Source of the DNA: Bacteroidales bacterium
Lineage (GTDB): Bacteria; Bacteroidota; Bacteroidia; Bacteroidales; P3
NCBI GenBank assembly: GCA_017962445.1
Contig: JAGCVI010000002.1
Location: 1 to 55,354 of the forward strand
Reading direction: 5' to 3'
DNA: 55,354 bases
Below the pieces are notes generated by a model that saw only the letters and a program-made list of their open reading frames with translations, ran no database searches and had not been told where the DNA came from. Shown piece after piece: positions 9,704-55,353 of the stretch. The translations under genes were made by a program, and so were the position numbers. How positions within the stretch are numbered: the stretch's first letter is position 1; every line of letters begins with the position of its first letter.

Positions 9704-9767
9704 AATTCTTGATTTTTGCGTCTTTGGAAACGCAACTTCATCAGAAAAATTGTTGTTTAAATAAAAA

Positions 9768-11640: not shown

Positions 11641-11644
11641 TAGA

Positions 11645-14029: not shown

Positions 14030-14047
14030 CATCAAACCTTAACTATC

Positions 14048-14251: not shown

Positions 14252-14271
14252 CTAACTGAAAAATAAAGAAG

Positions 14272-14308
14272 ACAAAGAAGCTCAATCCTCTTCGTTGAGC
14301 TTCTTTGT
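14272..14308. terminator. Bidirectional terminator that includes the end of lptB
   Basis: A 14-bp perfect stem (ACAAAGAAGCTCAA at 14272-14285 with its complement at 14295-14308) with a 9-base loop lies between the convergent PspC and lptB genes. The last codons and the stop of lptB are inside the hairpin. Flanking A/T runs on both sides allow termination in both directions. Confidence 0.8.
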
Positions 14309-35226: not shown

Positions 35227-35231
35227 AAAAT

Positions 35232-35314
35232 TTTCCTCCGCCGGTATTATCCGGATCAGGTTCGCGGGGTATGTTCTCAGCCCAGCATTACGCAGGTGGG
35301 GCACCCCCAAGGTT
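35232..35314 (-). promoter_or_regulatory. TPP riboswitch (THI element)
   Basis: The minus strand shows the conserved TPP aptamer: GGGGGTGCCCC near 35298-35308, GGCTGAGA near 35275-35282, ACCC, then GAACCTGATCCGGATAATAC (35242-35261) and the closing CGGCGGAGG. It ends just 5-6 bases before the receptor ATG, so it probably hides the start site when TPP binds. Confidence 0.96.
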
Positions 35315-35340
35315 AATAGATATTGTTAATTAAAAGTTTC

Positions 35341-36486: not shown

Positions 36487-36545
36487 TTCAGATGATATTG
36501 TTTAAGGATGTAAAAATACGAAAAATATTAAAAACGAACCACACC

Positions 36546-37343: not shown

Positions 37344-37373
37344 GGTTGTTGAATATTATTTGTTTACAAATTC

Positions 37374-39098: not shown

Positions 39099-40813
39099 CG
39101 TAGGTACCTCTTCTCTTCCATGCTGTAAACCTTGTCACACCGCGCTATTGTTGAAGCCCTGTGGGCTATGACGACCACTGTCCGCCCGCCCATAGTGTCG
39201 CGTAGCATATCGCTGAAATGCTGCTCGGTGGCGGCATCTAGAGCAGCCGTGGCCTCGTCCATGACTATCACATCGGGGTTGCCGGCCAGTGCCCTGGCGA
39301 TGTTCACACGCTGCCGTTCGCCACCCGACAGACGGCTGCCGCCGTCACCGATGTTGGTCTGCAAGCCTTCTGGCAGGTTACGCAATATTGGTTCCACTTG
39401 GGCAATCCTTACTGCAGCGTCAATCTGCTCGCGCGTAATCCATTCGCGACCGAAACGTATGTTGGCCTCGATGGTGTCGTTGAAAAGCATCGGCTCCTGG
39501 GGTATATAGGCAATTCTGCCGGCACGTTCCGCGCCGTTGCATGCCTTGCCGCCAATCAGCACCTCGCCTTCGTCGGGCTCTATCAGGCCGACAAGCATGC
39601 GGCCAAGCGTTGTCTTGCCCGATCCGCTTTCACCGACAATGGCTGTATGGCAATGTGCCTCGATGGTCAAGTCAAGATGCTCTATCACCTTTTCGCGACC
39701 ATAGCCGAAACTGACGTCTTTAAACTCTATAACACCGCTGCATTCTGCACTCCTCCCCGACTCCTCGTTCCAATCGCCTTTCACATTCAGAGCCTCCTCT
39801 ATCCGTTCAGCGACACCCATACCCTTCTTCAGCTGCGCTATGGCGTTGCTGAAATCCTTTATCGGTGTAAGCAGGAGGACGTAAATCATTATGTACGAAA
39901 CGAAAAGTGCAGGTGTCATCGACGCTGCGTCGCCAAGCACACGCTGTGCGCCGAGCATAAGGATAACAACAACTATGGTGTTGCCGACAAAGTCGCTTAT
40001 CGGCGATGCGGCATAGATGCGTCTGTACAGCGATATACGCCGCTGGGTGAACAACTTGTTCTGTTCACGTTGGCGTTCATTGACGTATTCTATTGCCGTG
40101 GCGGCCTTGATTTCCTTGAGCGAATCCAGGGTTTCCTGCGTTGTCGACATCAGCTCGCCGTTCAATGCCTGCAGCTTTTTTGATTGTCTCTTCAGCTTTC
40201 TGCTTACCGACAGCAGCCACGTGCCTATGCCCATCACCGCGACGACAAGCAATGTCATTTGCCAGTCGAGATAGAAAAGCATGAAGACGTAGACTACCAT
40301 TGTGAGTAGTGCACTGACAAGCATCTGTATGCTGTCGAGCACATTGGCCTCGTATTCTGCCACGTCGTTGCTCATGCGCGAAAGCCATTGGCCTTGCTGC
40401 TGACTTCCCCAATGGGCGAAATTCTGCCGCAAAGCTCCTTTGTGCAGGCCGTCGCGCACCTCACGCAACACTCCTGTCTTGACCTTGGCATACGACACCG
40501 CAGCCACATAGGAACACACATTCTTCATGCCATAGAGCACGAAAAGAAGCATGGCGTATAGTATCAACGCCCGTTGCGGACCTTCGGCGACAAGCAGTAG
40601 GTAAACCTTGCTGAGAAGCCTTTCTATCGGGTTGACGCTGCCAGTCGAAAACGAAAGACCCTGTTCGCCTGAAGGGAAAATGAGTTGCAGAAAGTCGGTT
40701 ACACTCAGTGCCGTGGCCATAGTAAACAATGCGGCCAACGCTGCGACTACCACATAGAGACACAGCGATCCCGCCTGATGGCTCATACCACTGCGAGTGA
40801 TTCCTTTCTGCAT
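39095..40813 (-). CDS. ABC exporter, fused permease and ATPase (MsbA-like)
   Basis: This 572-residue half transporter has six membrane segments (about 20-310), then an ATPase domain with Walker A GESGSGKTT, signature LSGGERQRVNIARAL, Walker B VIVMDEATAALD and switch His in VIAHRAST. It belongs to lipid or drug exporters; MsbA-like lipid flipping is possible. It lies 7 bases after purB and overlaps the T9SS protein gene. Confidence 0.92.
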   Translation of the reverse strand: MQKGITRSGMSHQAGSLCLYVVVAALAALFTMATALSVTDFLQLIFPSGEQGLSFSTGSVNPIERLLSKVYLLLVAEGPQRALILYAMLLFVLYGMKNVCSYVAAVSYAKVKTGVLREVRDGLHKGALRQNFAHWGSQQQGQWLSRMSNDVAEYEANVLDSIQMLVSALLTMVVYVFMLFYLDWQMTLLVVAVMGIGTWLLSVSRKLKRQSKKLQALNGELMSTTQETLDSLKEIKAATAIEYVNERQREQNKLFTQRRISLYRRIYAASPISDFVGNTIVVVILMLGAQRVLGDAASMTPALFVSYIMIYVLLLTPIKDFSNAIAQLKKGMGVAERIEEALNVKGDWNEESGRSAECSGVIEFKDVSFGYGREKVIEHLDLTIEAHCHTAIVGESGSGKTTLGRMLVGLIEPDEGEVLIGGKACNGAERAGRIAYIPQEPMLFNDTIEANIRFGREWITREQIDAAVRIAQVEPILRNLPEGLQTNIGDGGSRLSGGERQRVNIARALAGNPDVIVMDEATAALDAATEQHFSDMLRDTMGGRTVVVIAHRASTIARCDKVYSMEEKRYLR

Positions 40814-40820
40814 CGTTCAA

Positions 40821-42161
40821 TCAGAATTCTTCGGCATAGCCAAGGTAGTTGTGCGGCGTGATTTTGTGCAGCCGTTCCTTCACCTCGGCGGAGACTTCAA
40901 GTCCGTCGATAAAAGCGCTCATAGTCTCTGCAGTGACTTTCTCGTTGGTGCGTGTCAGCTGCTTCAACGCCTCGTACGGGTTGGGGTAGTCCACGCTGCG
41001 CAGCACCGTCTGTATTGCCTCTGCGGTTACAGCCCAGTTGTCCTCGAGGTCTTCGCTCAGCTTCGCCTCGTTCAGCAACAGTTTGCCAAGACCCTTCTGC
41101 AGCGATTGCAAGGCCACCAGTGAATGTGCCAGCGGCACACCGAGGTTGCGTATCACCGTCGAGTCGGTCAGGTCGCGCTGCATGCGCGAGATGGGCAGCT
41201 TCATCGAGAAATGGGTGAACAGCGCATCGGCAACTCCAAAGTTGCCCTCGGCGTTCTCGAAATCGATGGGGTTGACTTTGTGCGGCATGGCAGAGCTGCC
41301 AACCTCTCCGGCTTTTATCTTCTGACGGAAATAGTTCATCGAGATGTATGTCCAGATGTCGCGGCATAGGTCTATCAGCACCGTGTTCATCCTGCGTATT
41401 CCGTCCATATAGGCGGCCAAGTGATCGTAGTTCTCTATCTGCGTGGTGAGCTGCTGGCGTTCCAGACCGAGATGTTCCTTCAAGAACCTGTTGCCGAAAT
41501 CACGCCAGTCGATATCAGGGTATGCCACCCTGTGGGCGTTGTAGTTGCCTGTGGCTCCGCCGAACTTGCCGGTGAACGGTATGCCGTCCAACGCCTTCAG
41601 CTGCTCTTTCAAACGGTACACAAACACCATCAGTTCCTTGCCCAATCCTGTCGGCGATGCAGGCTGTCCGTGGGTATGTGCCAGCATCGGTATGTTGCGC
41701 CATTCCTGAGCCAGCGTCTCCAGCTTCTCGATAAGCGCAACATACGCCGGACGCACCACCGTTTCGTGCGACTCCTTGATCATCATCGGGAAAGCGGTGT
41801 TGTTGATGTCCTGCGATGTCAAACCGAAGTGTACCAACTCGCGCGGCAGCTTGCTGCCCATGGCATCCAACCTCTCCTTGATGAAATATTCCACGGCCTT
41901 CACGTCGTGGTTGGTTGTTTTCTCTATCTCTTTGACTCGTTCTGCCGACTCGGTGTTCCAGTTGCGGTACAAGCCACGCAACGCCTCGCTGTCGACAGGC
42001 TCCTTGACGGTGCCAAGCTCCTGCATCAAGGCGATGTAGTATTCAATTTCAACCTTCACGCGATAGCGTATCAGTGCCGATTCCGAAAAAAATGCGGCCA
42101 ACGGCTCTGACTTTCCATGGTAGCGCCCGTCTATAGGCGATATTGCGTCTAATATATTCAT
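40821..42161 (-). CDS. purB: Adenylosuccinate lyase
   Basis: It acts twice in purine synthesis, splitting fumarate from SAICAR and from adenylosuccinate. The 446-residue protein has the lyase signature SSAMPHKVNPIDFEN, the TSQDINNTA loop and HTHGQPASPT with catalytic His. The N-terminus (ISPIDGRYHGK) is the E. coli-type PurB form. It lies 10 bases after the PHP phosphatase gene. Confidence 0.97.
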   Translation of the reverse strand: MNILDAISPIDGRYHGKSEPLAAFFSESALIRYRVKVEIEYYIALMQELGTVKEPVDSEALRGLYRNWNTESAERVKEIEKTTNHDVKAVEYFIKERLDAMGSKLPRELVHFGLTSQDINNTAFPMMIKESHETVVRPAYVALIEKLETLAQEWRNIPMLAHTHGQPASPTGLGKELMVFVYRLKEQLKALDGIPFTGKFGGATGNYNAHRVAYPDIDWRDFGNRFLKEHLGLERQQLTTQIENYDHLAAYMDGIRRMNTVLIDLCRDIWTYISMNYFRQKIKAGEVGSSAMPHKVNPIDFENAEGNFGVADALFTHFSMKLPISRMQRDLTDSTVIRNLGVPLAHSLVALQSLQKGLGKLLLNEAKLSEDLEDNWAVTAEAIQTVLRSVDYPNPYEALKQLTRTNEKVTAETMSAFIDGLEVSAEVKERLHKITPHNYLGYAEEF

Positions 42162-42171
42162 AATGTCTTAA

Positions 42172-42954
42172 TTATTTGTCTTCTACCAGATATTTGTTTT
42201 GGAATTCCTCCTTCTCGATCAATTGTATTATCTTGCGGTTGGTCGATGCGTGGCGTAGAGCCTGGGCATACATGGTGTTGTGCATGTCGGTGCCGAGAAA
42301 TTCTATCCATCCGTTCTCTATGAAATCGAAAGCCTTCTTGCGAGCCTCTTCGCCATAGAAACCGTCAAGCGACAATATGTTGGACTGGAAATAAACGCCT
42401 TGCTCCTTCATTTGTTCCAAGCGGCTACTGTGGCTGTCGAAATAGGGATAACGCTCCGGATGGGCCAATATCACGTCGTATCCTTCCATCTGCCGCTCAA
42501 ACATCACCTCCTCGAATCCCATCACCGGCTGGTGCAAGGACAGCTCCATAAGCAGAAAACCTTTCTTTGAGCCTTTTGAAGGGTCGCTGAAACGGAACGT
42601 CAGGATTTCGTCCCGCTTAATGTGTTCACCGAAACCGTCGTCGATCCTGTACTCTCCCGAAATGCCGTTAATCTTGGGCAGATCCCTGTCGCCCCGATTT
42701 CTCTCAATCTCTTCAAGAAAGTTCTTATAGCGCTCCAGTATGTCGCTCTCCACATTAGGAAAACGCGGATATTGGAAATGCGGCGTCAGCTTAATCTCGT
42801 CGAAACCGACCTCCTTCATAGCCACCATCGACTCTAGAGATTCTTCAAGCGATTTGCTGCCGTCGTCCACCAGTGGCAACAGGTGGCAGTGCATGTCGGT
42901 CTTCAACGGCGCGAAAGTAGGCAGGGTCTTGTTCTTCTTAAAAAGTCCAAACAT
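42172..42954 (-). CDS. CpsB/YwqE-type protein-tyrosine phosphatase (PHP domain)
   Basis: This 260-residue PHP-fold metallohydrolase has DMHCHLLPLVDDGS (metal ligands), LTPHFQ, ELSLH, ILAHPERYPYF and GTDMHN. These match CpsB/CapC phosphatases, which act on the tyrosine kinase that regulates capsule or exopolysaccharide export. No kinase or capsule genes are nearby in this window. Confidence 0.93.
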   Translation of the reverse strand: MFGLFKKNKTLPTFAPLKTDMHCHLLPLVDDGSKSLEESLESMVAMKEVGFDEIKLTPHFQYPRFPNVESDILERYKNFLEEIERNRGDRDLPKINGISGEYRIDDGFGEHIKRDEILTFRFSDPSKGSKKGFLLMELSLHQPVMGFEEVMFERQMEGYDVILAHPERYPYFDSHSSRLEQMKEQGVYFQSNILSLDGFYGEEARKKAFDFIENGWIEFLGTDMHNTMYAQALRHASTNRKIIQLIEKEEFQNKYLVEDK

Positions 42955-43047
42955 TTTTTTTATATTGTTTTCGTTGACAGGTTGATTCGTTGAATTGTTT
43001 ATGAGGTCTTAAGTTTTATGGACAACGTAAAAGCCGTTGTTGTCTCC

Positions 43048-44403
43048 TTACAGCCTCTTTATATGGGCTCCGAGGGCGTTGAGACGCTCGTCGATGTTCT
43101 GGTATCCACGGTCTATCTGCTCGATATTGTCAATATGGCTCACTCCCTGTGCTGCCATGGCTGCTATCAGCAAAGCCACGCCGGCACGGATATCTGGCGA
43201 TGTCATGTGGGTGCCGCGCAGTGGGTGTTCACGGCCAAGACCTATGACGGTGGCGCGGTGAGGGTCGCAGAGTATTATCTGTGCACCCATGTCTATCAGC
43301 TTGTCGACAAAGAACAGGCGGCTTTCGAACATCTTCTGGTGTATAAGCACGCTACCTCGCGCCTGTATGGCAGTAACCAACGCAATACTTATCAAGTCGG
43401 GCGTGAAACCAGGCCACGGAGCATCAGCGATGGTAAGAATAGAGCCATCCATGAAGCGGTCTATCTCGTAGACCTCCTGTGCCGGAATGTACAGGTCGTC
43501 GCCTTTCTGCCAAATCTCTATGCCAAGGCGACGGAAAATCTGGGGTATCAGACCGAGGTGCTGCAGCGCGACATTGCTGATGGTGATGTCGCTCTGTGTC
43601 ATGGCGGCCATGCCTATGAAACTTCCCACCTCAATCATGTCGGGCAACAGGCGATGGCAAGTACCGTGAAGCTTTTCAACACCCTCTATCGTCAATAGGT
43701 TGCTTCTGACTCCGGAAATCTTTGCTCCCATCCTGTTGAGCATCTCGCAGAGCTGGTATACATAAGGCTCGCAAGCGGCGTTCATTATTGTTGTGGTTCC
43801 CTTGCCCATGACAGCGGCCATGATGATATTGGCCGTACCGGTGACACTGGCTTCGTCAAGCAGCATGTAACAGCCGCTCAGTCCATTTTCAGCAGTGAGG
43901 CTGTAGCCTCCATAGTTGTCTCCTTTCTTTTTTCCTACCGTCGGTGTGCGGAGCAGGAAATCGTCTATCTTCGCTCCCAGGTTTTCAAGTCCTGTCATGT
44001 GGGTGTCGACTCTTCGACGACCAATCTTGTCGCCACCGGGTTGAGGAACAACAGCGCGACCGAAACGAGTCAGCAGCGGTCCGGCGAGCATAATGCTGCC
44101 GCGCAGACTTGACGCCAAGGCGCAGTATTCGGATGTGCCAAGCATGTCGAGGTTTATCTCGTCGCACTGGAAAGTGTAGCTCTTTCCTACACCGTCCCAT
44201 GGCTCCTCCTTCACTTTGGCACCCAACAGCTGCATCAGCTTTATCAGATGGTTCACATCCCTGATGTCGGGGATGTTCTCTATTTTTACCGGTTCATCGG
44301 TCAGCATGACGGCGCATATCACCTGCAAGGCCTCGTTCTTGGCTCCCTGAGGTGTTATGGTACCGTGCAACCGGTGTCCGCCTTCTATTTCGAATGTTGA
44401 CAT
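43048..44403 (-). CDS. murA: UDP-N-acetylglucosamine 1-carboxyvinyltransferase
   Basis: It starts peptidoglycan synthesis by adding enolpyruvate to UDP-GlcNAc. The 451-residue protein has Lys22-Asn23 (GAKNEALQ), the RRVDTH region and the two-fold repeated EPSP-like domains. In the catalytic loop, GGDKIGRRRVD has Asp125 where E. coli MurA has Cys115. That change gives fosfomycin resistance in other bacteria. The length is a little above the usual 420-430. Confidence 0.95.
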   Translation of the reverse strand: MSTFEIEGGHRLHGTITPQGAKNEALQVICAVMLTDEPVKIENIPDIRDVNHLIKLMQLLGAKVKEEPWDGVGKSYTFQCDEINLDMLGTSEYCALASSLRGSIMLAGPLLTRFGRAVVPQPGGDKIGRRRVDTHMTGLENLGAKIDDFLLRTPTVGKKKGDNYGGYSLTAENGLSGCYMLLDEASVTGTANIIMAAVMGKGTTTIMNAACEPYVYQLCEMLNRMGAKISGVRSNLLTIEGVEKLHGTCHRLLPDMIEVGSFIGMAAMTQSDITISNVALQHLGLIPQIFRRLGIEIWQKGDDLYIPAQEVYEIDRFMDGSILTIADAPWPGFTPDLISIALVTAIQARGSVLIHQKMFESRLFFVDKLIDMGAQIILCDPHRATVIGLGREHPLRGTHMTSPDIRAGVALLIAAMAAQGVSHIDNIEQIDRGYQNIDERLNALGAHIKRL

Positions 44404-44430
44404 AATACTGGTTTTTGGTTCGTCGCCGTA

Positions 44431-45054
44431 TTATTTTTTCTTTTTCTTCTTCTTGCCTTGCGACTGCTCTACCGGCAGGCTCGCATGGTTGACATATATG
44501 TTCTTGCCTTGCAGTCTGTCTCTCACCCGCTCGTCGCCCGACATCTGTACAATCTGATTGACGACAATCTCATCATCCGAAAGGTCACCGTTCCACACCA
44601 GGTACGAACGTTTGGCTTGCTGAGCTATCAGCATCACCAGCGAGTCGTACTCTTCGCCGTCGGGCAAATCCTTCAGTTTTTTTATCATCAACTCCAAGTA
44701 TTCGCCGTAGTGACGGCGGTCTATCTCGGTATTCTTGTATTGCAGTCTTTCGTGGGGCTTGTTGGTTTCTTCACTGGCTCTTTTCTTTAATTCGGCAAGT
44801 TCTTCTTGCGCGAACGGCCATGCCGATTCCAGTCTGAATTCCGACATCACCATAAGGTGGTCCCATAATTTGTGCAGCGACACTTCGTCGCGCAACGACA
44901 GCCCGCTCACCTGACCCATCACCGAAATCAAAGCCCTTGTGGCCTCCTTTCTCGGTTCTCCTTCTTCAACGGCACACACGGTCTCTATCATCTTCTTTAT
45001 GTTGCGCCCATACTCACGATACTGCATGTCGCCTCTTTTCGTATTGTATTCCAT
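44431..45054 (-). CDS. DUF4290 family protein
   Basis: This 207-residue, mostly helical protein starts MEYNTKRGDMQYREYGRNIKK, the typical opening of DUF4290, which is conserved next to murA in Bacteroidota. It has no signal or membrane segment. It ends in a run of Lys (codons at 44431-44451) that may bind nucleic acid or the membrane. Function unknown; it lies 27 bases before murA and is probably cotranscribed. Confidence 0.92.
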   Translation of the reverse strand: MEYNTKRGDMQYREYGRNIKKMIETVCAVEEGEPRKEATRALISVMGQVSGLSLRDEVSLHKLWDHLMVMSEFRLESAWPFAQEELAELKKRASEETNKPHERLQYKNTEIDRRHYGEYLELMIKKLKDLPDGEEYDSLVMLIAQQAKRSYLVWNGDLSDDEIVVNQIVQMSGDERVRDRLQGKNIYVNHASLPVEQSQGKKKKKKK

Positions 45055-45091
45055 TTTTCAAAACTTTAAATAAAATAACGCGGCACCCTTA

Positions 45092-45985
45092 TTATTTATT
45101 ATTTTTATTTACGTTTCTTTTTTCAAAAAGGTCCAGGAACTCCTGCGGTATGGGAGTTTCAAGTCTCACGTCCTCGCCGGTCACCGGATGGTGGAAACAA
45201 AGGCGGAATGCATGAAGCGCCAGTCTGTTCAACGGCGACTTGTCGTCCTTGTAGCCATAGATGGGATCTTTCAGCAATGGATGTCCGATGTCGCGCATGT
45301 GAACCCTTATCTGATTGCGTCGGCCTGTCTCAAGCTGCATCTGCACCAAAGCATACCTGGCGTTGCTCTTCAAAGTCTTGTAATGCGTCACCGCCAGCTT
45401 TCCGCCGTTGTCGGTGGGTGACGACAGTACCGAGTACTCGCCGTCTGTCAACCACGACCTCACCATTCCGTCGCGTGGCACAGGCGTGCCCCATGTAACC
45501 GCAACGTAGGCTCTGTCGTACACCTGCTCTTTCCAGTTCCTCTCAAGCATCATCGACACCTCCTTGCTTTTGGACACCAACAACAGTCCCGATGTGTCCC
45601 TGTCGAGACGATGGACTACATGTGCCCTTTGGCGTGAACGCCGACGGATGAAGTATTCGTTCAGCTCGGAGATGACAGTGATATCGTTGGGGTGACTGCT
45701 GCTGCTCAATACACCGACAGGCTTGTTGACCACCAAGAGGTGGCGATCCTCGAAGACTATTGGCATCATGCCGCCCAACATTTTCATCCTGTTGTCGTCG
45801 CCCTCTATTATTACCTTCATCCCTTCGTGCAGCGGGTAGTCGTACTGTGTCACTCTCCGCGAAGCAATGACAACGCGATGTGCCAGTATTTCCTTATGTT
45901 TTGTGCGGCTGCTGTCGGGGAAAACCCGTTCTATCAACTCAAGCAGTTTTATCGGTTCCTTTATCTCGATTTCTAAAGTCTTCAT
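45092..45985 (-). CDS. RluA-family pseudouridine synthase
   Basis: This 297-residue pseudouridine synthase has the RluA catalytic motif HRLDRDTSGLLL with Asp128 (residues 125-136), after a short S4-like N-terminus (about 8-60). C-terminal RNQIRVHMRDIGHPL and LHAFRLCFHHP complete the family pattern. It modifies uridines in rRNA or tRNA; RluC or RluD specificity cannot be told. Confidence 0.94.
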   Translation of the reverse strand: MKTLEIEIKEPIKLLELIERVFPDSSRTKHKEILAHRVVIASRRVTQYDYPLHEGMKVIIEGDDNRMKMLGGMMPIVFEDRHLLVVNKPVGVLSSSSHPNDITVISELNEYFIRRRSRQRAHVVHRLDRDTSGLLLVSKSKEVSMMLERNWKEQVYDRAYVAVTWGTPVPRDGMVRSWLTDGEYSVLSSPTDNGGKLAVTHYKTLKSNARYALVQMQLETGRRNQIRVHMRDIGHPLLKDPIYGYKDDKSPLNRLALHAFRLCFHHPVTGEDVRLETPIPQEFLDLFEKRNVNKNNK

Positions 45986-46053
45986 CTATGTTTTTACTAT
46001 TTGTTTTTTGCTTACTTTTTTCATTCCAAATATTATCAAATCAGTCACAAAAA

Positions 46054-46069
46054 TGTTTCACATGAAACA
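46054..46069. promoter_or_regulatory. parS-like site (ParB/Spo0J binding), one mismatch
   Basis: TGTTTCACATGAAACA matches the bacterial parS consensus TGTTTCACGTGAAACA at 15 of 16 positions. The two 7-base arms are perfect inverted repeats around CA. It lies in the gap between the RluA-type and ProX-type genes, 1.5 kb from the repeat-rich region. Only one such site was seen. Confidence 0.55.
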
Positions 46070-46082
46070 TTACGATAAGTTA

Positions 46083-46640
46083 TTAACAACCAGTTTGATG
46101 AATATTATCTCTATGAACATTTTCCTGCACGTTTTCAACAGTGTCCTTATCGTACAGTTTCAGCACCTCGAATTGGTTGCCGATATTATTGATGAATTTC
46201 AGCATATCCTTGTTCGAAATCACCAGCGACGCCCTGTTGTCGTTTGGGTGGAAACTCACCTTTTCGGCCTTGAGCAAACCCTCATCGACAAATAAGATCA
46301 CCTCGTGGTTTTCATCGTTGACAAGGTTGAACAGGCTCACCGAGCCGGGACGCACACCGAGGTATTTCATCATCCGTTCCGGCGACGCAAAAGAGAGCTT
46401 GCCTTGATGCAGCATCTTCTCGATGGCATGGATGTCCATGTCATGACGACTGTCCATGATGACGAGGTAATGTTTGTTACCTTTATGGTTGCGGAAAAAA
46501 AGGTTTTTGCACAGCGTGGTGCCTTCTCCTCGGTAGAACTGTGCGGCTATCTCTATCGTCGGCGCTTCCGGATGCTCGTAATATTCATACTCCACGCCTA
46601 TCTTCTCCAGGTAGTCGTAGACTTGCTTCTGACCTGTCAT
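46083..46640 (-). CDS. YbaK/ProX-type aminoacyl-tRNA deacylase
   Basis: This 185-residue INS-fold protein (EHPEAPTIEIAAQ, CKNLFFRNHKGNKHYLVIM, KLSFASPERMMKYLGVRPGSVS) resembles ProX/PrdX, which removes mischarged Ala from tRNA-Pro. K45-type lysine (CKNLF) is likely in the active site. It overlaps nadA by 4 bases (ATGA). Confidence 0.9.
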   Translation of the reverse strand: MTGQKQVYDYLEKIGVEYEYYEHPEAPTIEIAAQFYRGEGTTLCKNLFFRNHKGNKHYLVIMDSRHDMDIHAIEKMLHQGKLSFASPERMMKYLGVRPGSVSLFNLVNDENHEVILFVDEGLLKAEKVSFHPNDNRASLVISNKDMLKFINNIGNQFEVLKLYDKDTVENVQENVHRDNIHQTGC

Positions 46641-47584
46641 TTTATTATTCCGAGTTCTTTCGACATATCCAGCATCCGCACAATCGGTGTTTTGGCCTTC
46701 TCAATCAAATCGCTGTCGAGGATTATTTCCGGTTTTTCGTCACGCAGGCAAAGATACAGTTTTTCCAGAGTGTTCATCTTCATGTACGAGCATTCGTTGC
46801 AACTGCAGCTGTCGCTGCCCGATGGGACAATAAATTCCTTGTCGGGATTGTTCTTCTTCATCTCGTACAGGATGCCTGGCTCGGTGGCGACGATAATACG
46901 CTTACTTTCGCTTTTCTGTATATAGTTGAGCATTGCCTTGGTCGAGCCGATGAAATCGGCGACAGCCAGAAGTGCCGAATTGCACTCAGGATGGGCAACC
47001 ATCGGTGCGTCGGGATATTCAGATTTTAGCTTCAGGAAACTCTCGGCCTCCATGGCGTCGTGAACCACACAGACTCCGTCCCATAAAACCATGTTGCGGC
47101 CAGTCTTGCTGTTTATGTATCCGCCAAGGTTGCGGTCGGGAGCGAAAATAATCTTCTCGTCGGCCGGCAAAGCGTTGATGAGTTTCTCGGCATTGCCAGA
47201 GGTGCAAATCAAATCCGACTCCGCCTTGACTTCGGCTGAGCAGTTGACATACGAGACCACAATATGACCTGGATATTGTTCTTTGAATTTTCGCAGGTCC
47301 TCTCCGTTGCACGACTCGGCAAGCGAGCAACTGGCGGCAACGTCAGGTAAAAGGACCTTACGCGAAGGATTCAGTATCTTTGCCGTCTCCGCCATAAAAT
47401 GAACGCCGCAAAAAACGATTATATCAGCATCGGTGCGCTGAGCCTCCTGCGCCAAGGCAAGGCTGTCGCCTATATAGTCGGAGATATCCTGAATGTCGTC
47501 AATTTGGTAATAATGTCCCAAAATGACAGCCCGTTTTTCTTTTTTAAGCCTTATAATCTCGCTTTTAAGCTCATCCTTTGTCAT
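46637..47584 (-). CDS. nadA: Quinolinate synthase
   Basis: It condenses iminoaspartate with dihydroxyacetone phosphate to quinolinate in NAD synthesis. The 315-residue protein has the three cluster Cys (Cys86, Cys172, Cys260) of a 4Fe-4S enzyme, AILGHYYQ-like ILGHYYQIDD, and FCGVHFMAETAK. A second small Cys group (SCSCNEC) lies at the C-terminus. No nadB or nadC is adjacent. A perfect palindrome lies 30 bases upstream. Confidence 0.96.
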   Translation of the reverse strand: MTKDELKSEIIRLKKEKRAVILGHYYQIDDIQDISDYIGDSLALAQEAQRTDADIIVFCGVHFMAETAKILNPSRKVLLPDVAASCSLAESCNGEDLRKFKEQYPGHIVVSYVNCSAEVKAESDLICTSGNAEKLINALPADEKIIFAPDRNLGGYINSKTGRNMVLWDGVCVVHDAMEAESFLKLKSEYPDAPMVAHPECNSALLAVADFIGSTKAMLNYIQKSESKRIIVATEPGILYEMKKNNPDKEFIVPSGSDSCSCNECSYMKMNTLEKLYLCLRDEKPEIILDSDLIEKAKTPIVRMLDMSKELGIIK

Positions 47585-47613
47585 ATTATTTCATTTTTAT
47601 GTTCAAACTCAAT

Positions 47614-47635
47614 ATGAGTGATATATATCACTCAT
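47614..47635. promoter_or_regulatory. Perfect 22-bp palindrome upstream of nadA
   Basis: ATGAGTGATAT and its exact inverted copy ATATCACTCAT meet at the centre. It lies 30 bases before the nadA ATG and 20 bases after the probable -7 element, so it covers the early transcript. It could be an operator for a NAD-responsive repressor, or a leader hairpin. Confidence 0.65.
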
Positions 47636-47654
47636 ACAAGTTAAATTGTTTTTG

Positions 47655-47662
47655 CAAAATTA
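47655..47662 (-). promoter_or_regulatory. Probable -7 element of nadA
   Basis: The minus strand reads TAATTTTG followed by CAAA, a full TAnnTTTG match 71 bases before nadA. No TTTG is found at the usual upstream spacing. Confidence 0.55.
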
Positions 47663-48146
47663 CGAATTTTCAAAAGAATACTAAAATCATTTTTTTGTCA
47701 ACACGAATTTATAAAAACAGAAAACAAAAAAGATATTTTTAAAAAGTAATTTTTTTTCTTCTTTTTTCTTTAGCTGTTCATTTGTTGAAAAAGGTTGTTT
47801 ATTGACAGTTTTTCTATCATTGTCTTAACATATAAGAAACAACTTATCACCGTTTAATTGTTATTGTTTCAAATTGTTGTTTAATTATAAACATATTGTT
47901 AATTCTACTATTTCACAATACTCGAATAGATCTGTTTTTTGTTGAGAACGATGATGAAATACCATTAATATCTTTTCATATTTTTGTCGTTTTTCAACAA
48001 TTATGCAGTAATTGACAATCGCCGTTTTTTTTCAACAATTTTTCAATGCATAATTCAACTTGTAGATGTTTATAAATTTCCTCTGAAATAACGGCGAATA
48101 AATTTAATTATACGAAATTACACAGGTCAAAATATTCGAAAGATTG

Positions 48147-48656
48147 CGTAGCTTAGAGTAATTCGAGAAATTCGCCGTTTTTTCAAATGTCAAGATATCT
48201 ATGTAAATTTACAGTTGTAAACAAAGGATGTGTTTCCTCTAAAATAACGGCGAATAATTCTAACTTGACGAAGCCGCACATGTCAATTTAGGACAAATTA
48301 TCCGAATGTTTGACAATCCCACTTTACATGCGTAGCTTAGAGTGATTCGAGAAATTCGCCGTTTTCATATGTCAAGACATTTATGTAAATTTCACAGTTG
48401 TAAACACAAGGTGTGTTTCCTCCGAAAAAACGGCGAATAACTCTAATTTAAAGAATCCGCATAGGTCAATTTAGGGAAGATTACCCGAATGCTTGGCAAT
48501 CCGCCTTACTTGCGTAGCTTAGAGTAATTCGCAAAAAATCTGTATGATAAGGGCAGCGTAGATTATCGTAATTCGAGAAATTATCCGTTTTTTACATTTG
48601 TCTGTGTTTATGTCAAGATATTTTTGTAAATTTGCAGCGAAAAAAAATGTGATTAA
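48147..48656. repeat. About three direct copies of a ~183-bp unit with inverted arms
   Basis: Units begin with cgtagcttagag at 48147, 48331 and 48513 (spacings 184 and 182). Units 1 and 2 are alike at about five of six positions over their length. Unit 3 is rearranged, with a second start (cgtagattatcg) at 48557. A diverged partial copy precedes at about 48020-48146. Each unit has ttagagtaattcg and ccgtttt on the left and aaaacgg with cgaataactctaa on the right, forming a long imperfect stem. In unit 1, TGTAAATTTACA (48202-48213) is a perfect palindrome between the arms. Confidence 0.85.
48597..48626 (+). promoter_or_regulatory. Promoter-like sequence in the third repeat unit
   Basis: TTTG (48597-48600), 18 bases, then TATTTTTG (48619-48626) match the Bacteroidetes consensus. 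The same place in units 1 and 2 reads TATCTATG and CATTTATG, so only unit 3 matches. It could drive rpiB 390 bases downstream or a short RNA. Confidence 0.5.
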
Positions 48657-48705
48657 GAGAAAATGAAAAATAAGGTGAGATGGGAGAAAGAGTAGAAGTT
48701 AAAGA

Positions 48706-48767
48706 GGAAGTTAATCTTCGATGGAAGTTAAGTGCTTCGCACAGGACAATACCGATTCATTTGTCCA
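48706..48767. repeat. Interspersed 62-base repeat, copy 2
   Basis: This is almost identical to 31579-31640; the main differences are aagtgc for aaatgc and a one-base shift near aatacc. Both copies share the run cttcgcacaggacaatac. Here it is followed by three copies of a ggctgcg element (tgccgaaggctgcgtgccag), also echoed near 22640. Confidence 0.8.
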
Positions 48768-48810
48768 CTTTTGCCGAAGGCTGCGTGCCAGAGGCTGCGT
48801 GCCAGAGGCT

Positions 48811-48937
48811 GCGAACACCTTATTAAAAAATATTGTAGTGAGCAACACCTTAATTAAAATTTATTGTGGTGAGCAACACCTTAATTAAAATTTATTGTGG
48901 TGAGCAACACCGTAGAAATAAAAGAAACTACAGTGAG
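48811..48937. repeat. Tandem array of a 31-base unit, about four copies
   Basis: Units start at 48811, 48842, 48873 and 48904, with a partial fifth at 48937. The form is gcaacaccttaattaaaatt then tattgtggtga. Units 2 and 3 are identical, unit 1 is close and unit 4 diverges in the middle. There are no unique spacers, so it is not a CRISPR. It ends 79 bases before rpiB. Confidence 0.9.
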
Positions 48938-49015
48938 CAACTCCCATTTTTATTTCCCATCGTTCCACTTTATTATTTCATCAATAACAATACCAATCTA
49001 TAACTCTATCATATC

Positions 49016-49459
49016 ATGCCAGAAATAATACCAATTGCCTCAGATCATGCAGGCTTCGAATTGAAAGAAAAAGTAAAACAGTATCTGTCTTCCAAAAATA
49101 TGGAAGTCAAGGATTTCGGAACTTTTTCCGCCGACAGTGTCGACTACCCCGACTATGCTCACCTCATCGGTTCTGCAGTCAACCGCGGCGATTTCAAGCG
49201 CGGCATCGTCATCTGCGGTTCCGGCAACGGTGTGCAGATGACAGTCAACAAGTATCCAAACGTGCGGTGTGCCTTGTGCTGGAACGAGGAGATTGCCTCG
49301 CTTGCACGTCAGCACAACGACGCCAACATGATTGCCATGCCTGCAAGGTTCATTCCATCCGACTTGGCTCTCCGTATCGTCGACATCTTTCTGTCCACTC
49401 CTTTCGAAGGTGGCCGCCATCAACGTCGTGTAGAAAAAATTAATCACTTGTTATCTTGA
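49016..49459 (+). CDS. rpiB: Ribose-5-phosphate isomerase B
   Basis: It interconverts ribulose 5-phosphate and ribose 5-phosphate in the pentose phosphate pathway. The 147-residue protein has the start IASDHAGFELKE, the active-site loop VICGSGNGVQM with catalytic Cys, and RCALCWNEEIASLARQHNDANM. It is the first plus-strand gene after the repeat region. With deoC nearby it supports pentose and deoxyribose use. Confidence 0.96.
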   Translation: MPEIIPIASDHAGFELKEKVKQYLSSKNMEVKDFGTFSADSVDYPDYAHLIGSAVNRGDFKRGIVICGSGNGVQMTVNKYPNVRCALCWNEEIASLARQHNDANMIAMPARFIPSDLALRIVDIFLSTPFEGGRHQRRVEKINHLLS

Positions 49460-49465
49460 TTTTTG

Positions 49466-50602
49466 ATGAATAAAGATTTTTACATCAATTTTTTAAGTAA
49501 TTCAGAAAAGGCTGTCAAGGAAAGTCAGGGAGCGGCAGTTTTTCAAAAGCATGCCGACAACCTCCCTTTCGTTGACTCTGATTCAGCGGCGAAGTGTCTG
49601 CACAATGCCCAGCTGCGCACCATCGAGAACCTTGACGAGGAATTGAACCGCTTCGAGAAGAATTTCGCCAACAAGCACAACTCCGTCTTCTGGGCCTCCG
49701 ATTTCAACGATGTGTTCAGCAGTTTGAAGCAACTCTTCAAGACCCACAAAGTCAAGTCGGTGCGACTGCCTAATGTCAAGGCTTCGACAATATTCCGCGA
49801 GCTCGGCATAAAGTATTTCCTCAAAGAGGAAAAGATATCGCTTGCCGACGATGCCGACATGCAGTTTTTCGCCGTCGACATGATGGTTGCCGACACAGGT
49901 TCGCTGCTCTTTGTCAACCAGAGCAACAACTCGCTGTCGAAGCTTTCGAACAACCGCACCAATGTCTTTTTCGTCACTGTCGACCATATCCTTCCCAACG
50001 CTTCGAAAGTGGAGGTCTACCAGCAGCTTGTCTCTTATCACAATGGAGCAGCACAGCAGGACATGTTCCTGTTCAAAGGGTCGCCAAACTGCAACAACTA
50101 CCTCTTCATTATCGACAACCAGCGAAGCACATTGCTGAAAGAAAAACAGTTGCGTCAGTCTATGACCTGCCTTCAGTGTGGACGTTGCAGCGATGTGTGT
50201 CCCGTTTTCCAAACCATCGGCGAGGAACCTTACAATAATGTCTTCACAGGACCTGTCGCCAACATCATGCTCCCCTGGCTTGAAACCATCGAGTCGTACA
50301 GGCATGTTCTTTACACCTGCACCCTTTGCGGACGTTGCGAAGAGGTCTGCCCTGTCGACATGCCTATCCGCGACATGATTCTTGATGCCAGACATTCATT
50401 TTTCATCAACGGACAGATAGACAAAAAGGACAAGAAAGTGATGTCGGCAATGCGCAAGACAGCGCTGAGCCGCTCAAAGATGAACGCATCCAGCATGTTC
50501 CGCCGCCGTCGCCTGCGCAAATTCCTGTCGTCCGATTTCCGCCGCCGTCGCAAAACCCCACCCCTGAGCAAAGAGACATTCAACAGGTTATTCATGAAAT
50601 AA
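49466..50602 (+). CDS. LutB-like iron-sulfur protein
   Basis: This 378-residue protein has an N-terminal LUD-type domain (about 1-225) and two 4Fe-4S motifs, CLQCGRCSDVCPV and CTLCGRCEEVCPVD (about 230-300). An Arg-rich tail (FRRRRLRKF, FRRRRK) follows. True LutB has about 470 residues and a further C-terminal part, so this is a short form. It may pair with the LutA at 26759 in lactate oxidation, although the two are 22 kb apart. The ATG at 49466 is chosen over a TTG three bases earlier. Confidence 0.85.
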   Translation: MNKDFYINFLSNSEKAVKESQGAAVFQKHADNLPFVDSDSAAKCLHNAQLRTIENLDEELNRFEKNFANKHNSVFWASDFNDVFSSLKQLFKTHKVKSVRLPNVKASTIFRELGIKYFLKEEKISLADDADMQFFAVDMMVADTGSLLFVNQSNNSLSKLSNNRTNVFFVTVDHILPNASKVEVYQQLVSYHNGAAQQDMFLFKGSPNCNNYLFIIDNQRSTLLKEKQLRQSMTCLQCGRCSDVCPVFQTIGEEPYNNVFTGPVANIMLPWLETIESYRHVLYTCTLCGRCEEVCPVDMPIRDMILDARHSFFINGQIDKKDKKVMSAMRKTALSRSKMNASSMFRRRRLRKFLSSDFRRRRKTPPLSKETFNRLFMK

Positions 50603-50632
50603 ACTATAACTATCAGCTGCGTTTACAACAAC

Positions 50633-51382
50633 ATGCCATCATCACTTACCACCCTTTTCTCCTGCATCGACAACACCACCCTCAGCGGCACCGACAGCGT
50701 TGAGTCGGTAGCCGCCTTCTGCAAGGCCACTGCTGCCATGCAGACCATCGAGGTACCCCATGTCGCGTCGGTATGCGTCTATCCTCTTTTTGTCGAGACG
50801 GCCAAGAAGTCGCTCGCAGGCACATCAATACGTGTCGCCTCGGTGGCCGGCGGCTTTCCGGCAGGACAGATACCTCTGAATCTGAAACTTGACGAAATCC
50901 GCTATGCCATAGACTCTGGTGCCGATGAGATAGATTTTGTCATCAACCGTGGACGCTTTCTCCAGGGTGGCGAAAACCATCTTTTCGACGAGGTGGCGGC
51001 AGCCAAAGAGGCCTGCAAGGACCACACCCTCAAGGTTATCATCGAGACAGGCGAGTTGGTCGATGCCGGACATATCTACAGTGCCTCGATGGTTTCTCTC
51101 AACGCCGGCGCCGACTTCATCAAGACCTCCACGGGCAAGATACCCGTCGGAGCCACCCCCTTTGCCGCCTATACCATGTTGTGCGCGTTGCGTGATTTTA
51201 TAAAAAACAATAAAAAAGAGGTCGGTTTCAAGGCCGCTGGAGGCATTTCCACACCCTCCGACGCTCTGTTCTACTACAATTTAGCAGAAAAAATATTGAA
51301 AGATAAAAATATTACTAATCAGAATTTTAGAATTGGAGCCAGCCGCCTGACAGCAAAAATGTTTAAAATTTTAACAGAGTAG
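50633..51382 (+). CDS. deoC: Deoxyribose-phosphate aldolase
   Basis: It splits 2-deoxyribose 5-phosphate into glyceraldehyde 3-phosphate and acetaldehyde in nucleoside breakdown. The 249-residue protein has the Schiff-base lysine in FIKTSTGK, KVIIETGEL, and GFKAAGGIS with the second active-site Lys. The length is normal. It lies 30 bases after the LutB-like gene. Confidence 0.96.
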   Translation: MPSSLTTLFSCIDNTTLSGTDSVESVAAFCKATAAMQTIEVPHVASVCVYPLFVETAKKSLAGTSIRVASVAGGFPAGQIPLNLKLDEIRYAIDSGADEIDFVINRGRFLQGGENHLFDEVAAAKEACKDHTLKVIIETGELVDAGHIYSASMVSLNAGADFIKTSTGKIPVGATPFAAYTMLCALRDFIKNNKKEVGFKAAGGISTPSDALFYYNLAEKILKDKNITNQNFRIGASRLTAKMFKILTE

Positions 51383-51383
51383 T

Positions 51384-51416
51384 TTTGTGTTTTTTCGATT
51401 TTTTTTTGTTATTTTG
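51384..51416 (+). promoter_or_regulatory. Probable promoter of spt
   Basis: TTTG (51384-51387), 21 bases, then TTATTTTG (51409-51416), one mismatch from TAnnTTTG, and GCACC. It lies 34 bases before the spt ATG and right after the deoC stop. Confidence 0.5.
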
Positions 51417-51449
51417 CACCTTATTTAATATATCAACTCGTCTTTTTAA

Positions 51450-52634
51450 ATGAAACCATTACGACAAAAACTCTCCAGATATACCGCCCCACAGGAAGCC
51501 AAAGCCAAGGGCGTTTATCCTTATTTCAGAGAGATTGCTAGCGATCAGGACACTGAGGTTTTGATGAATGGAAGAAAAGTCCTGATGCTTGGTTCCAATA
51601 GTTATTTGGGTCTTACCAATCATCCTAAAATCAAGGAGGCTGCCAAGGCCGCTATCGACAAGTACGGCACCGGCTGTGCAGGTTCTCCCTTCCTCAATGG
51701 TACCCTTGATATTCATATCAAACTTGAAAACACTCTTGCCGAATTTCTTGGTAAGGATGGTGTTATGCTTTTCTCAGCTGGCTTCCAGGCTAATTCCGGT
51801 GTCATCCCTTGTGTTACGGGACGTAACGACTACGTCATTTTCGATGAGATGGACCATGCTTCCATCATCGAAGGCAAGCGTCTCACCTTTGCCTCAACTC
51901 TCAAATACCGTCACAACGATATGGCAGACCTTGAACGTGTGCTGCAACGCTGCCCACTCGATGCCGCCAAGCTGGTGGTCACCGATGGTGTCTTCAGTAT
52001 GGAAGGCGATGTCGCCAAACTTCCCGAAATGCAGCAACTGTGCGACAAATATCAGGCCACCCTCATGGTTGACGAAGCTCACGGACTCGGTGTTTTCGGA
52101 CGCGAAGGCCGTGGTGTGACAGATCATTTTAATCTGCTTGACAAGACGGAGCTTATCATGGGCACTTTCTCCAAGTCGCTCGCTTCTATCGGTGGTTTCA
52201 TAGCTGCCGACAAGGATACCATCAATTGGATGCGTCACAACGTGCGGCCCTATATTTTCACCGCCAGCATCCCGCCATCGGCTACAGCATCTGTCCTTGC
52301 AGCCCTCGAAATCATGCGCAGCGAGCCCGAACGCCAGGAAAATCTTTGGAAGGTGGCGAACTACGCCCTCAAATCATTCCGCGATGCAGGCTTTGAAATC
52401 GGCAACACCGAAACACCTATCCTGCCTCTATATGTGCGTGACAACGAGAAGACCTTCATGGTCACACGTATGCTCCTTGACGAAGGTGTATTTGTCAACC
52501 CCGTCATCTCGCCTGCCGTGCCTCCCGAGGACACTCTCATCCGTCTTGCATGGATGGCAACCCATACCCTCGAACATGTCGATTTTGCAGTCGAGAAAAC
52601 GGTGAAATGCTTCAAAAAACTTGGTTTGCTTTGA
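51450..52634 (+). CDS. spt: Serine palmitoyltransferase
   Basis: This PLP enzyme of the alpha-oxoamine synthase family condenses serine with an acyl-CoA to 3-ketosphinganine, the first step of sphingolipid synthesis. Sphingolipids are typical of Bacteroidota membranes. The 394-residue protein has PLP Lys242 in TFSKSLASIGGF, His136 (MDHASI), Asp208 and His211 (DEAHGLG) and the GSNSYLGL start. Related KBL (glycine C-acetyltransferase) and BioF differ, but the N-terminal KGVYPYFREI and the organism favour SPT. Confidence 0.9.
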   Translation: MKPLRQKLSRYTAPQEAKAKGVYPYFREIASDQDTEVLMNGRKVLMLGSNSYLGLTNHPKIKEAAKAAIDKYGTGCAGSPFLNGTLDIHIKLENTLAEFLGKDGVMLFSAGFQANSGVIPCVTGRNDYVIFDEMDHASIIEGKRLTFASTLKYRHNDMADLERVLQRCPLDAAKLVVTDGVFSMEGDVAKLPEMQQLCDKYQATLMVDEAHGLGVFGREGRGVTDHFNLLDKTELIMGTFSKSLASIGGFIAADKDTINWMRHNVRPYIFTASIPPSATASVLAALEIMRSEPERQENLWKVANYALKSFRDAGFEIGNTETPILPLYVRDNEKTFMVTRMLLDEGVFVNPVISPAVPPEDTLIRLAWMATHTLEHVDFAVEKTVKCFKKLGLL

Positions 52635-52707
52635 TGGGAGCCCTCTCCTCACCATCAATTCGTAATTAGGAATTAACAGTTTCATTGCCATTCAAAACCT
52701 TTCAACC

Positions 52708-53829
52708 ATGAAAGACATTGTTATCAGTGAAGTCAAAGGTCGCCGTGACCTGAACAAGTTCATTGCATTCCCTAACAAGCTCTTCAAGAATGTACCCACC
52801 TACATTCCTCCGTTGAATCGCGATGAGCGTGCTTTGCTGACCGACAAGAACCCCTCGTTAGAACATTGCGACCTGCAGATGTACCTTGCCACTGTCGACG
52901 GCACAATCGTAGGTCGTGTTGCAGCCATCATCAACCACACTGTCAACGAGCATTGGAACAAGAAAGCCGTCCGTTTCGGATGGTTCGATTTTGTCGAGGA
53001 TTTCGATGTCTGCAAGGCTCTTTTCGACAAGGTTGTGGAGTATGGCAAAAGCAAGGGCATGACCGAAATAGAAGGTCCGTTCGGCTTCACCGACATGGAC
53101 AAGGAGTGTTGGGTCATAGAGGGTTTTGACGCACGGCAGAACCTCAGTACTCTATACAACCCGAAATATTATATCGACTTTATTGAACGGCTCGACTGCA
53201 AGGTGCTTTGCCGCTGGCAGCAGTACAAGATGCCGGCAAGCCAGCCCATTCCCGAAAAGGTGGCGCGCATCAACGAGCTTATCCTTCAGCGTTACAACCT
53301 TAAGCTCTTGCGTTTCAAGAAGCGCAGTGAAGTTTATCCGTATGCTCGCAAGTTCTTCCACACCTTGAACGACGCTTTCAAGGACCTGTACGATTTCGTG
53401 CCGATGACCGAGAAGGAGATTGATGTGTATATCAAGGAGTATTTCCCGTTCATCAATCTGGATTTTTGCAATTTCGTTGTCGACAAGGACGACAATCTTG
53501 TGGCTTTCGGCCTCAGCATCCCGAGCCTTACGGAGGCTTACAAGAAGGCAAACGGGCATCTCTTCCCGTTCGGGTGGTACCATCTGTTGCGTGCCCTGCA
53601 CAAGTATGACACCATCGACCTTCTGCTTAACGGAGTTCATCCCGATTGGCAGAAGCGGGGTGTGCATTCCATCTATTATGCCGAGATGAACCGCAACGCC
53701 ATCAAAAACAAAGTCATTTGGGCCTACACCAACCCGCAGATTATAGGCAACGAAGCCGAGAAGATATGGGGCACCACCTACCAGACCGAGCCTCTGATGA
53801 TGCGTGCCGTCTTCGGCAAGACTTTCTAA
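52708..53829 (+). CDS. GNAT-like acyltransferase next to spt, possible ceramide synthase
   Basis: This 373-residue cytosolic protein has a GNAT-like fold: an N-terminal acyltransferase-like part (YLATVDGTIVGRVAAIIN, GRVAA as the CoA loop) and a second one (VVDKDDNLVAFGLSIPS). GPFGFTDMDKECWVIEGFD is a conserved central motif of the family. It has no signal or membrane segment. A bacterial ceramide synthase of the GNAT superfamily is known from Caulobacter, and the place next to spt makes a role in N-acylation of sphinganine plausible. This is inference from context. Confidence 0.75.
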   Translation: MKDIVISEVKGRRDLNKFIAFPNKLFKNVPTYIPPLNRDERALLTDKNPSLEHCDLQMYLATVDGTIVGRVAAIINHTVNEHWNKKAVRFGWFDFVEDFDVCKALFDKVVEYGKSKGMTEIEGPFGFTDMDKECWVIEGFDARQNLSTLYNPKYYIDFIERLDCKVLCRWQQYKMPASQPIPEKVARINELILQRYNLKLLRFKKRSEVYPYARKFFHTLNDAFKDLYDFVPMTEKEIDVYIKEYFPFINLDFCNFVVDKDDNLVAFGLSIPSLTEAYKKANGHLFPFGWYHLLRALHKYDTIDLLLNGVHPDWQKRGVHSIYYAEMNRNAIKNKVIWAYTNPQIIGNEAEKIWGTTYQTEPLMMRAVFGKTF

Positions 53830-54090: not shown

Positions 54091-55353
54091 TCACTCCACC
54101 ACCAGTTTCTTCACTGTAATCCCATGGTTTGTGGTGATGCGGACGAGGTAGGTTGCGGAGGGCAGGGAGCGGGTGTCGAGGGTGGCGGAGGTCTCGTTGG
54201 GGTGCAGCTCTGCCACTGTGCGGCCACTCATGTCGATGATTGTCAGCGTCAGAATTGTCTCGTCGGACGAGACCAGCACCGTCTCCTTGGCTGGGTTGGG
54301 GGTGACTGTCAGCGAGGGATTGCCGTCGGGGCCGTCGATGGCGAGGACCTGTGCGAACATGGCCGTAAACGCGGTGTCCTGGGTTAGGGTGAACATGCGT
54401 GGGTTGTTCCAGTCGCCGTCGTTCCACTGCTCGAAGGCGAAGGTGTCGTTGACCGGCTCGGCAGATATGGTGACAATGGAGCCGTAAGGGTAGGAGCCGT
54501 CTCCGCTGACGGTACCCCAGTCGGGGTTGTTGGCGGTGAGCTGCACGGTGTGGTGCTCGTTCTCGACAAAGTAGGCTGTGAACACGGTGTCTTGCACGGC
54601 CATCACCACGCGCGGGTTCTCGGTGCTGCCGTCGCTCCAGTGGGTGAAACGGAAGCCGGGGTTAGGCTGTGCGCTGATGGTGTCGTACCAGCCGTCGGGT
54701 ATCAGTCCGCCGCCGCCGACACTGCCCATCCCGGTATTGTCGGAGCGCACCTCGATGTTGAACTTGTCGACAATGGCGAGGTAATAGCCGTAAGGGTTGT
54801 CGGGCCACGGACTTTCCCACAAATCCATTGTTATCCCCGACCAGTGCGTGCCGACATAATGCAGGCGCAGCCATGTCGACAGGTCGTTCGGGTCCACGTT
54901 CAGGCAGTTGAGGAACGACGGCAGGATGTCGGCATAGAGGGTCTGTGCATAGTTACGATGGTTGTGTGTCGTGCCCCAGAGGAAGAAGACAGAATCCACT
55001 GTGGCCGGTTTGTCGAAATAAGCCTCGAAGACGTAGCAGTACTGGTAGTGGACGGTGTCGGTGAGGCCCTGCGATATGGCCATGATGCGATACTGAGCCG
55101 TATCCCAGCGCGCCGAGTCGACCGCTATCATGCTGTCGTGGACATGCCAAGCCTCATGCAATGACAGAAGTATGGAATCAACATGGGTCTTCCTGGTGAG
55201 CTGGAACACCCCAACGTATTCGGGGATGTACTCAGGATTTATGTTTGGGGAAGTGTTGTCGTATATCAGCAGGGCCGCGATACCCTTTATCTTGAGCGGC
55301 TGCGGGGTGCGTTCATACTTCGCCACTATTTCGGCATCGACGCGCTGCCCTAC
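54091..55353 (-). CDS. T9SS type A cargo protein, N-terminus beyond the window
   Basis: The frame is open to the right edge (VGQRVDAEIVAKYERT at the edge), so the gene starts outside and at least 420 residues are in view. The visible part has a beta-rich domain of unknown type, then two Listeria-Bacteroides-like repeats (GFRFTHWSDGSTENPR and FAFEQWNDGDWNNPR), then a type A sorting tail (VTPNPAKETVLV, LTIIDMSGRTVAEL, SATYLVRITT, KKLVVE). It is probably a surface or secreted protein. A GTG at 55326 is not the real start, as coding continues upstream. Confidence 0.88.
   Translation of the reverse strand, partial: VGQRVDAEIVAKYERTPQPLKIKGIAALLIYDNTSPNINPEYIPEYVGVFQLTRKTHVDSILLSLHEAWHVHDSMIAVDSARWDTAQYRIMAISQGLTDTVHYQYCYVFEAYFDKPATVDSVFFLWGTTHNHRNYAQTLYADILPSFLNCLNVDPNDLSTWLRLHYVGTHWSGITMDLWESPWPDNPYGYYLAIVDKFNIEVRSDNTGMGSVGGGGLIPDGWYDTISAQPNPGFRFTHWSDGSTENPRVVMAVQDTVFTAYFVENEHHTVQLTANNPDWGTVSGDGSYPYGSIVTISAEPVNDTFAFEQWNDGDWNNPRMFTLTQDTAFTAMFAQVLAIDGPDGNPSLTVTPNPAKETVLVSSDETILTLTIIDMSGRTVAELHPNETSATLDTRSLPSATYLVRITTNHGITVKKLVVE

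Follow-up and report, generated by a model that had tools for sequence, protein, structure and literature searches.

The dnaA gene usually marks the bacterial origin of replication. In the Bacteroidetes, oriC commonly lies far from dnaA, as stated in passages of PMC4755523, and a study that placed gut-bacterial origins by the same parS consensus as used here, with two mismatches, warns that dnaA is not always an origin marker (PMC10197239); figures in PMC5771137 set the oriC of Porphyromonas gingivalis at dnaA. The oriC of Prevotella intermedia chromosome I, as described in PMC4755523, sits at a GC-skew transition and resembles the locus reported below in having several DnaA boxes and in lying away from dnaA, but it differs in that it was found with E. 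coli-type boxes at one mismatch; its flanking genes are left unnamed in the relevant passages. In Tenacibaculum, Ori-Finder put oriC next to rpiB on six of the seven circular chromosomes and near rpiB on the seventh (PMC9864904), so rpiB as an origin neighbour is already published for another class, as a prediction. Tenacibaculum is, however, a flavobacterium and not a member of the Bacteroidales, its oriC is a prediction only, and the relevant passages of PMC9864904 mention neither nadA nor box sequences. The oriC of the linear chromosome of Cyanothece, which is bound by DnaA domain IV, shares the DnaA box TTATCAACA with the gaps of our relatives, but this organism is a cyanobacterium and the passages describe one TTATCAACA box only (PMC4674748). 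Among the open-licence papers that literature searches listed, no title or abstract placed a Bacteroidales origin at nadA-rpiB. Because Bacteroidota origins are often unlinked to dnaA, growth-rate methods that use origin copy number, and genome finishing as well, are without an anchor in uncultured lineages.

The window analysed here is a stretch of 55,354 bp, positions 1-55354 of contig C10 of an uncultured Bacteroidales genome (G000; 38 contigs, 80% complete). The most similar NadA among named relatives, at 82% identity, belongs to an uncultured Bacteroidales metagenome assembly from reindeer. The original prediction had proposed a candidate chromosomal origin in a repeat-filled gap between divergent gene blocks, and the ORF list agrees with this arrangement: 14 minus-strand ORFs tile 31719-47584 and five plus-strand ORFs tile 49016-53829, followed by an ORF on the minus strand at 54091-55326. 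The gap divides into two dissimilar halves, the left at 47585-48075 and the right at 48077-48988. On the basis of the motifs, motif statistics, conservation, and parS and synteny context computed here, we are highly confident that 47585-48075, the AT-rich half on the left of the gap between nadA and rpiB, is the chromosomal oriC; boxes, weak duplex, parS and synteny all support the proposed origin, with its limits narrowed to this half. The features of the locus are as follows.

46054-46069, plus strand: parS-like site TGTTTCACATGAAACA, the sole match at ≤1 mismatch in the window (0.01 expected)
46637-47584, minus strand: nadA (quinolinate synthase; PF02445, E 2.7e-121), left flank, pointing away from the gap
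47585-49015: gene-free gap of 1431 bp with divergent nadA and rpiB on either side (ORF list and Pfam matches)
47585-48075: candidate oriC core, AT-rich with DnaA-box-like motifs (box statistics and duplex energies)
47622-47771: candidate duplex unwinding element, the weakest 150-bp duplex of the window (nearest-neighbour energies)
47695-47703, plus strand: relaxed box TTGTCAACA (motif scan, as for all boxes below)
47750-47770, minus strand: seven NAN trinucleotides, DnaA-trio-like (trio rule of PMC8287927)
47783-47791, minus strand: box TTTTCAACA adjoining a T/C tract, candidate unwinding box
47885-47893, plus strand: variant box TTATAAACA
47940-47948, minus strand: relaxed box TTCTCAACA
47991-47999, plus strand: box TTTTCAACA
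48029-48037, plus strand: box TTTTCAACA
48067-48075, minus strand: variant box TTATAAACA
48077-48636: lineage-specific tandem repeat, unit length about 183 bp, containing the inverted repeat ACGGCGAAT..ATTCGCCGT
48695-48988: dispersed repeat and 31-bp tandem array, with related copies on other contigs
49016-49459, plus strand: rpiB (ribose 5-phosphate isomerase B; PF02502, E 4.6e-59), right flank

The TTCAACAA-type motifs noticed earlier proved to be real and non-random, with three TTTTCAACA and two TTATAAACA in 47585-48075. None of 1000 dinucleotide shuffles of the left half, which was delimited for shuffling only after the boxes had been seen, contained five boxes, and 1 of 1000 shuffles of the whole gap did; the left-half boxes also form the densest 500-bp cluster of the window. 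The boxes at 47991 and 48029 form a direct TTWTCAACA pair at a spacing of 10-40 bp, the only one in the genome assembly, and this pair is weak evidence on its own because the reversed control pattern gave two matches. As the original prediction had noted, there is no exact E. coli-type box: TTATCCACA is absent from the gap even at ≤1 mismatch, and the window contains six such matches versus 12.8 expected. The AT-rich half that had been described includes 47622-47771, which is weaker than any other 150-bp duplex in the 55 kb, and the best stretch of the gap ranks third when 50 or 100 bp are considered. The left half combines two features expected of an oriC, namely an above-chance cluster of putative DnaA boxes (TTWTCAACA/TTATAAACA) and an AT-rich candidate unwinding element adjoining a box.

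Conservation of the gap and of the gene divergence in relatives, suggested as a check in the original prediction, was observed at two taxonomic depths. The divergent nadA-rpiB pair was present in 28 of the 30 family genomes chosen (eight genera), with gaps of 414-1082 bp; these genomes, and the 12 contig stretches used below, were chosen from those with long contigs around nadA. In G011 and G022, nadA and rpiB are on different contigs. When the family loci were taken with 1.5-kb flanks, 27 of 29 showed the divergent pair, and rpiB was not found within the 1.5-kb flank in L110 and L121. The order-wide sample comprised 119 genomes from 118 families, 97 of which had both nadA and rpiB. Both genes were on one contig in 48 of the 97, and 44, among them our own genome and G003 of the same family, had the pair in divergent orientation no more than 5 kb apart, the gaps spanning 397-1877 bp (median 577). 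Among the 53 genomes in which the pair was not shown, the genes were on different contigs in 49 and on one contig at more than 5 kb in four.

A box scan appropriate to the lineage, also suggested at the outset, found the box strongly over-represented in the gaps of our genome and its relatives. In an unguided k-mer count over 31 of 33 gaps (L023 and L037 left out), the top k-mers were TTATCAACA and TTTTCAACA, which occurred 40 times versus 0.67 expected and 49 times versus 2.23 expected, respectively, and TTATAAACA occurred 27 times versus 1.87 expected; these gaps come from related genomes and are hence not independent. TTATCAACA is one base off the E. coli DnaA box and TTTTCAACA is two bases off. 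Over 20 order gaps hand-picked from the 44, TTATTAACA occurred 34 times versus 1.92 expected and TTATCAACA 12 times versus 0.42 expected. TTWTCAACA was missing from 13 of these 20, with TTATTAACA there instead, so the putative DnaA box appears to drift at its fifth base between lineages. Closer to our genome, TTWTCAACA was absent in 4 of 32 relatives' gaps, including two from close relatives, G002 (L101) and G090 (L103), and the same two had none in the gap when 12 contig stretches of relatives (107-200 kb) were tested. In 10 of these 12 stretches the gap was the densest 600-bp window of TTWTCAACA, with a lead of just one box in G032, G027, and G055.

With a confidence only slightly above even, we further propose that the nadA-rpiB interval is the ancestral, vertically kept origin of the Bacteroidales, perhaps of the Bacteroidota, uncoupled from dnaA and with a box, TTWTHAACA, that shifts by lineage. 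If true, this ancestral origin would be a landmark for origin placement in uncultured genomes of the phylum. The nadA-rpiB landmark (a gap of 0.4-1.9 kb, with parS close by in this genus) would, together with the lineage-specific box, supply the anchor mentioned above, and it would make origin evolution testable across the order.

The parS-like site that had been noticed 1.5 kb away lies 1516 bp from the gap with one mismatch, and parS is found by the gap across the genus too. TGTTTCACATGAAACA remains the sole match in the window at ≤3 mismatches, where 3.45 are expected. At ≤1 mismatch, parS was found in 14 of 30 family genomes, including all nine of our genus, and not in the other 16; each of the 14 has at least one site on the contig of nadA, and the reversed control gave 0 in 30. 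At ≤2 mismatches, 31 of 32 genus genomes have parS, and the reversed control also matches in 21 of 32. The position was similar among the genus contigs, seven of eight having parS (≤1 mismatch) 1.7-3.6 kb from the gap midpoint, towards nadA; contigs from other genera, four in all, had only two-mismatch sites or none.

That the origin may be unlinked to dnaA, as originally suggested, is in line with the location of dnaA on contig C8, not on C10, and with the separation of dnaA and nadA onto different contigs in all 29 relatives (of 30) in which dnaA was found. The classic layout with oriC adjacent to dnaA is not seen on these contigs. The C-terminal stretch of our DnaA reads KDHATVLHAC, which we take to resemble that of E. 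coli DnaA.

We propose that DnaA, encoded on another contig, would bind the TTTTCAACA-type boxes and would spread from the box at 47783-47791 onto the A-rich minus strand at 47750-47770. The weak duplex would then open at about 47622-47771, the helicase would be loaded, and two forks would depart, each running the same way as one of the diverging gene blocks. ParB, which presumably binds parS 1.5 kb away, may help organise and segregate the new origins. The closest described counterpart of the opening step is the basal unwinding system (BUS), whose rule is a box, a spacer of about 10-13 (at most 16), and three or more NAN trios (PMC8287927). Like the BUS, the window has a box, a spacer of 12, and seven trios: the trio run starts 12 nt after the box at 47783-47791, inside the T/C tract at 47730-47774, where the minus strand is A-rich. 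The arrangement obeys the rule, yet the run is not beyond shuffles, since 345 of 5000 same-composition shuffles reach seven trios; we therefore dropped it as origin evidence and regard it as consistent with a BUS, no more. Unlike the window, the BUS was tested in other bacteria, and Bacteroidetes are unmentioned in the main text of PMC8287927.

The T/C tract is part of a module that consists of the tract, then TGTT(A/C)ATT or TGTCA(A/G)T, then GTTGA or similar, the copy in the window being at 47730-47795. In 28 of the 33 gaps, the module could be recognised by eye on the picked site or immediately ahead of it; the site had been picked by a score that included T content. The weakest 60-bp duplex adjoins the module in 24 of 28 gaps examined out of the 33 (L102, L109, L118, L122, and L128 left out), with positions entered by hand, and given the site picking and the hand entry this figure leans towards the claim. 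Because the module regex matched in just 3 of the 20 order gaps, we claim the module for the family only.

GC skew is the weak point of the oriC reading and gives it partial support. A change of skew at the gap, which had been proposed as a check, stood in so far as 10 of 12 relatives have a higher skew to the right of the gap than to its left; it did not stand in that the minimum falls within 1 kb of the gap in three of 12 and that there is no flip in the window. The right-minus-left difference was positive in 10 of 12 relatives with up to 100 kb on each side, in 10 of 12 with 50 kb, and in 9 of 12 with 20 kb, and G027 and G055 do not follow this order. Within the window, skew values are below zero on either side of the gap and the cumulative curve reaches its minimum at 54123; as the window extends just 6.3 kb beyond the gap on the right, window skew alone is uninformative as an origin test and was set aside. 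The cumulative minimum was 22-79 kb off in seven relatives, and in G093, where it was 7 kb off, it is simply the contig end. With a 40-kb switch-point score, the gap was in the top tenth in 4 of 11 scorable relatives (G002, G032, G055, and G096) and in the lower half in five (G077, G094, G100, G052, and G027). For third-codon skew taken by gene strand, six contigs gave 12 comparisons, and in 9 of these the right side had the higher value.

An alternative is that the region is only origin-proximal and that oriC lies some kilobases off in the direction of rpiB, for instance close to mnmG/gidA and its parS sites. In G090 the minimum is indeed displaced by 9 kb towards the rpiB side, in the window it falls at 54123, and both G002 and G090 have mnmG with parS at a distance of about 12-14 kb. 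However, no second box cluster was as strong and the gap tops 10 of 12 contigs, G096, G023, and G032 have their minimum no more than 1 kb from the gap, and the gap remains long across families; we consider an origin on the rpiB side unlikely. In G090, the 8 kb on the rpiB side run against the skew trend, as in the window. Contig C1 of our genome matches the rpiB side of G090, C1:14377-31248 also matches that of G002, and farther along C1 the matches are to other places in G002. The skew of our genome was −0.062 left of the gap, +0.070 in C1:14101-31250, which is syntenic with the rpiB side, and −0.018 in C1:1-14100, with the orientation of C1 relative to the gap taken from synteny.

On C1 (L014), a segment at about 3600-12700 that carries mnmG plus three parS-like sites has the opposite orientation to its counterpart in G002 and G090. 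Copies of a dispersed repeat lie in opposite orientations near both of its ends, at C1:2816-2928 (plus strand) and C1:14136-14225 (minus strand), and a repeat-mediated inversion of the mnmG/parS segment next to the origin is possible.

That the gap is an ordinary divergent promoter region, with the boxes as regulator sites for nadA or rpiB and the rest as repeat clutter, is very improbable: promoter-like elements were seen by eye at both gap ends, a perfect 24-bp palindrome lies beside nadA, and the right half is dispersed repeat, but the top k-mer of the relatives' gaps, TTATCAACA, is a single base from the E. coli DnaA box, with TTTTCAACA two bases away, and a regulator site would not predict an adjoining parS or conservation across families. 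The palindrome, TATGAGTGATATATATCACTCATA, is at 47613-47636 just upstream of nadA and is a possible regulator site.

Returning to the oriC reading, the repeats that had been counted towards the origin fall largely outside the left half. The tandem units of ~183 bp, the 31-bp array, and the 24-bp palindrome are real, but most of the repeated sequence (48077-48988) is not conserved origin; the right half is a set of lineage-specific repeats between the core and rpiB. Segments of it have matches on 13 further contigs of our genome (47 match rows, the gap itself included). When folding of the units was compared with shuffles, two window units and the copy on contig C35 folded better than most shuffles did, with z values of −2.84, −2.15, and −3.17; the third window unit gave 0.10, but it had been trimmed before folding, with loss of the 3′ arm and is no fair test. 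Tandem units as small-RNA genes were considered and set aside, and because related hairpins sit at other intergenic spots, the units are treated as dispersed palindromic repeats. The copies in the gap and on C35 are accompanied by an element, TAnnTTTGC, that we take to be promoter-like.

The ACGGCGAAT..ATTCGCCGT palindromic repeats are intergenic and occur as clusters in both orientations, at 48077-48636 in the window, at 1448-1752 in L011, and in L012 near 77-340, 5168-6280, and 13980-14500. The family at 48695-48988 is made of dispersed non-coding repeats with inner tandem arrays, found for example on C1, C17, C7, C15, C20, and C31. Among the listed output, the gaps of L019, L101, L119, L125, and L129 were seen by eye to have long inverted repeats whose sequences differ. 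Elsewhere in the window, the minus-strand ORF at 54091-55326, at the contig end, encodes a protein with InlB-like repeats and a Por secretion tail, which had no match in the stretches of G002 and G090 searched. Rfam at the gathering threshold gave no match at the gap; a TPP riboswitch is located at 35216-35318 on the minus strand, ahead of the ORF at 33013-35310.
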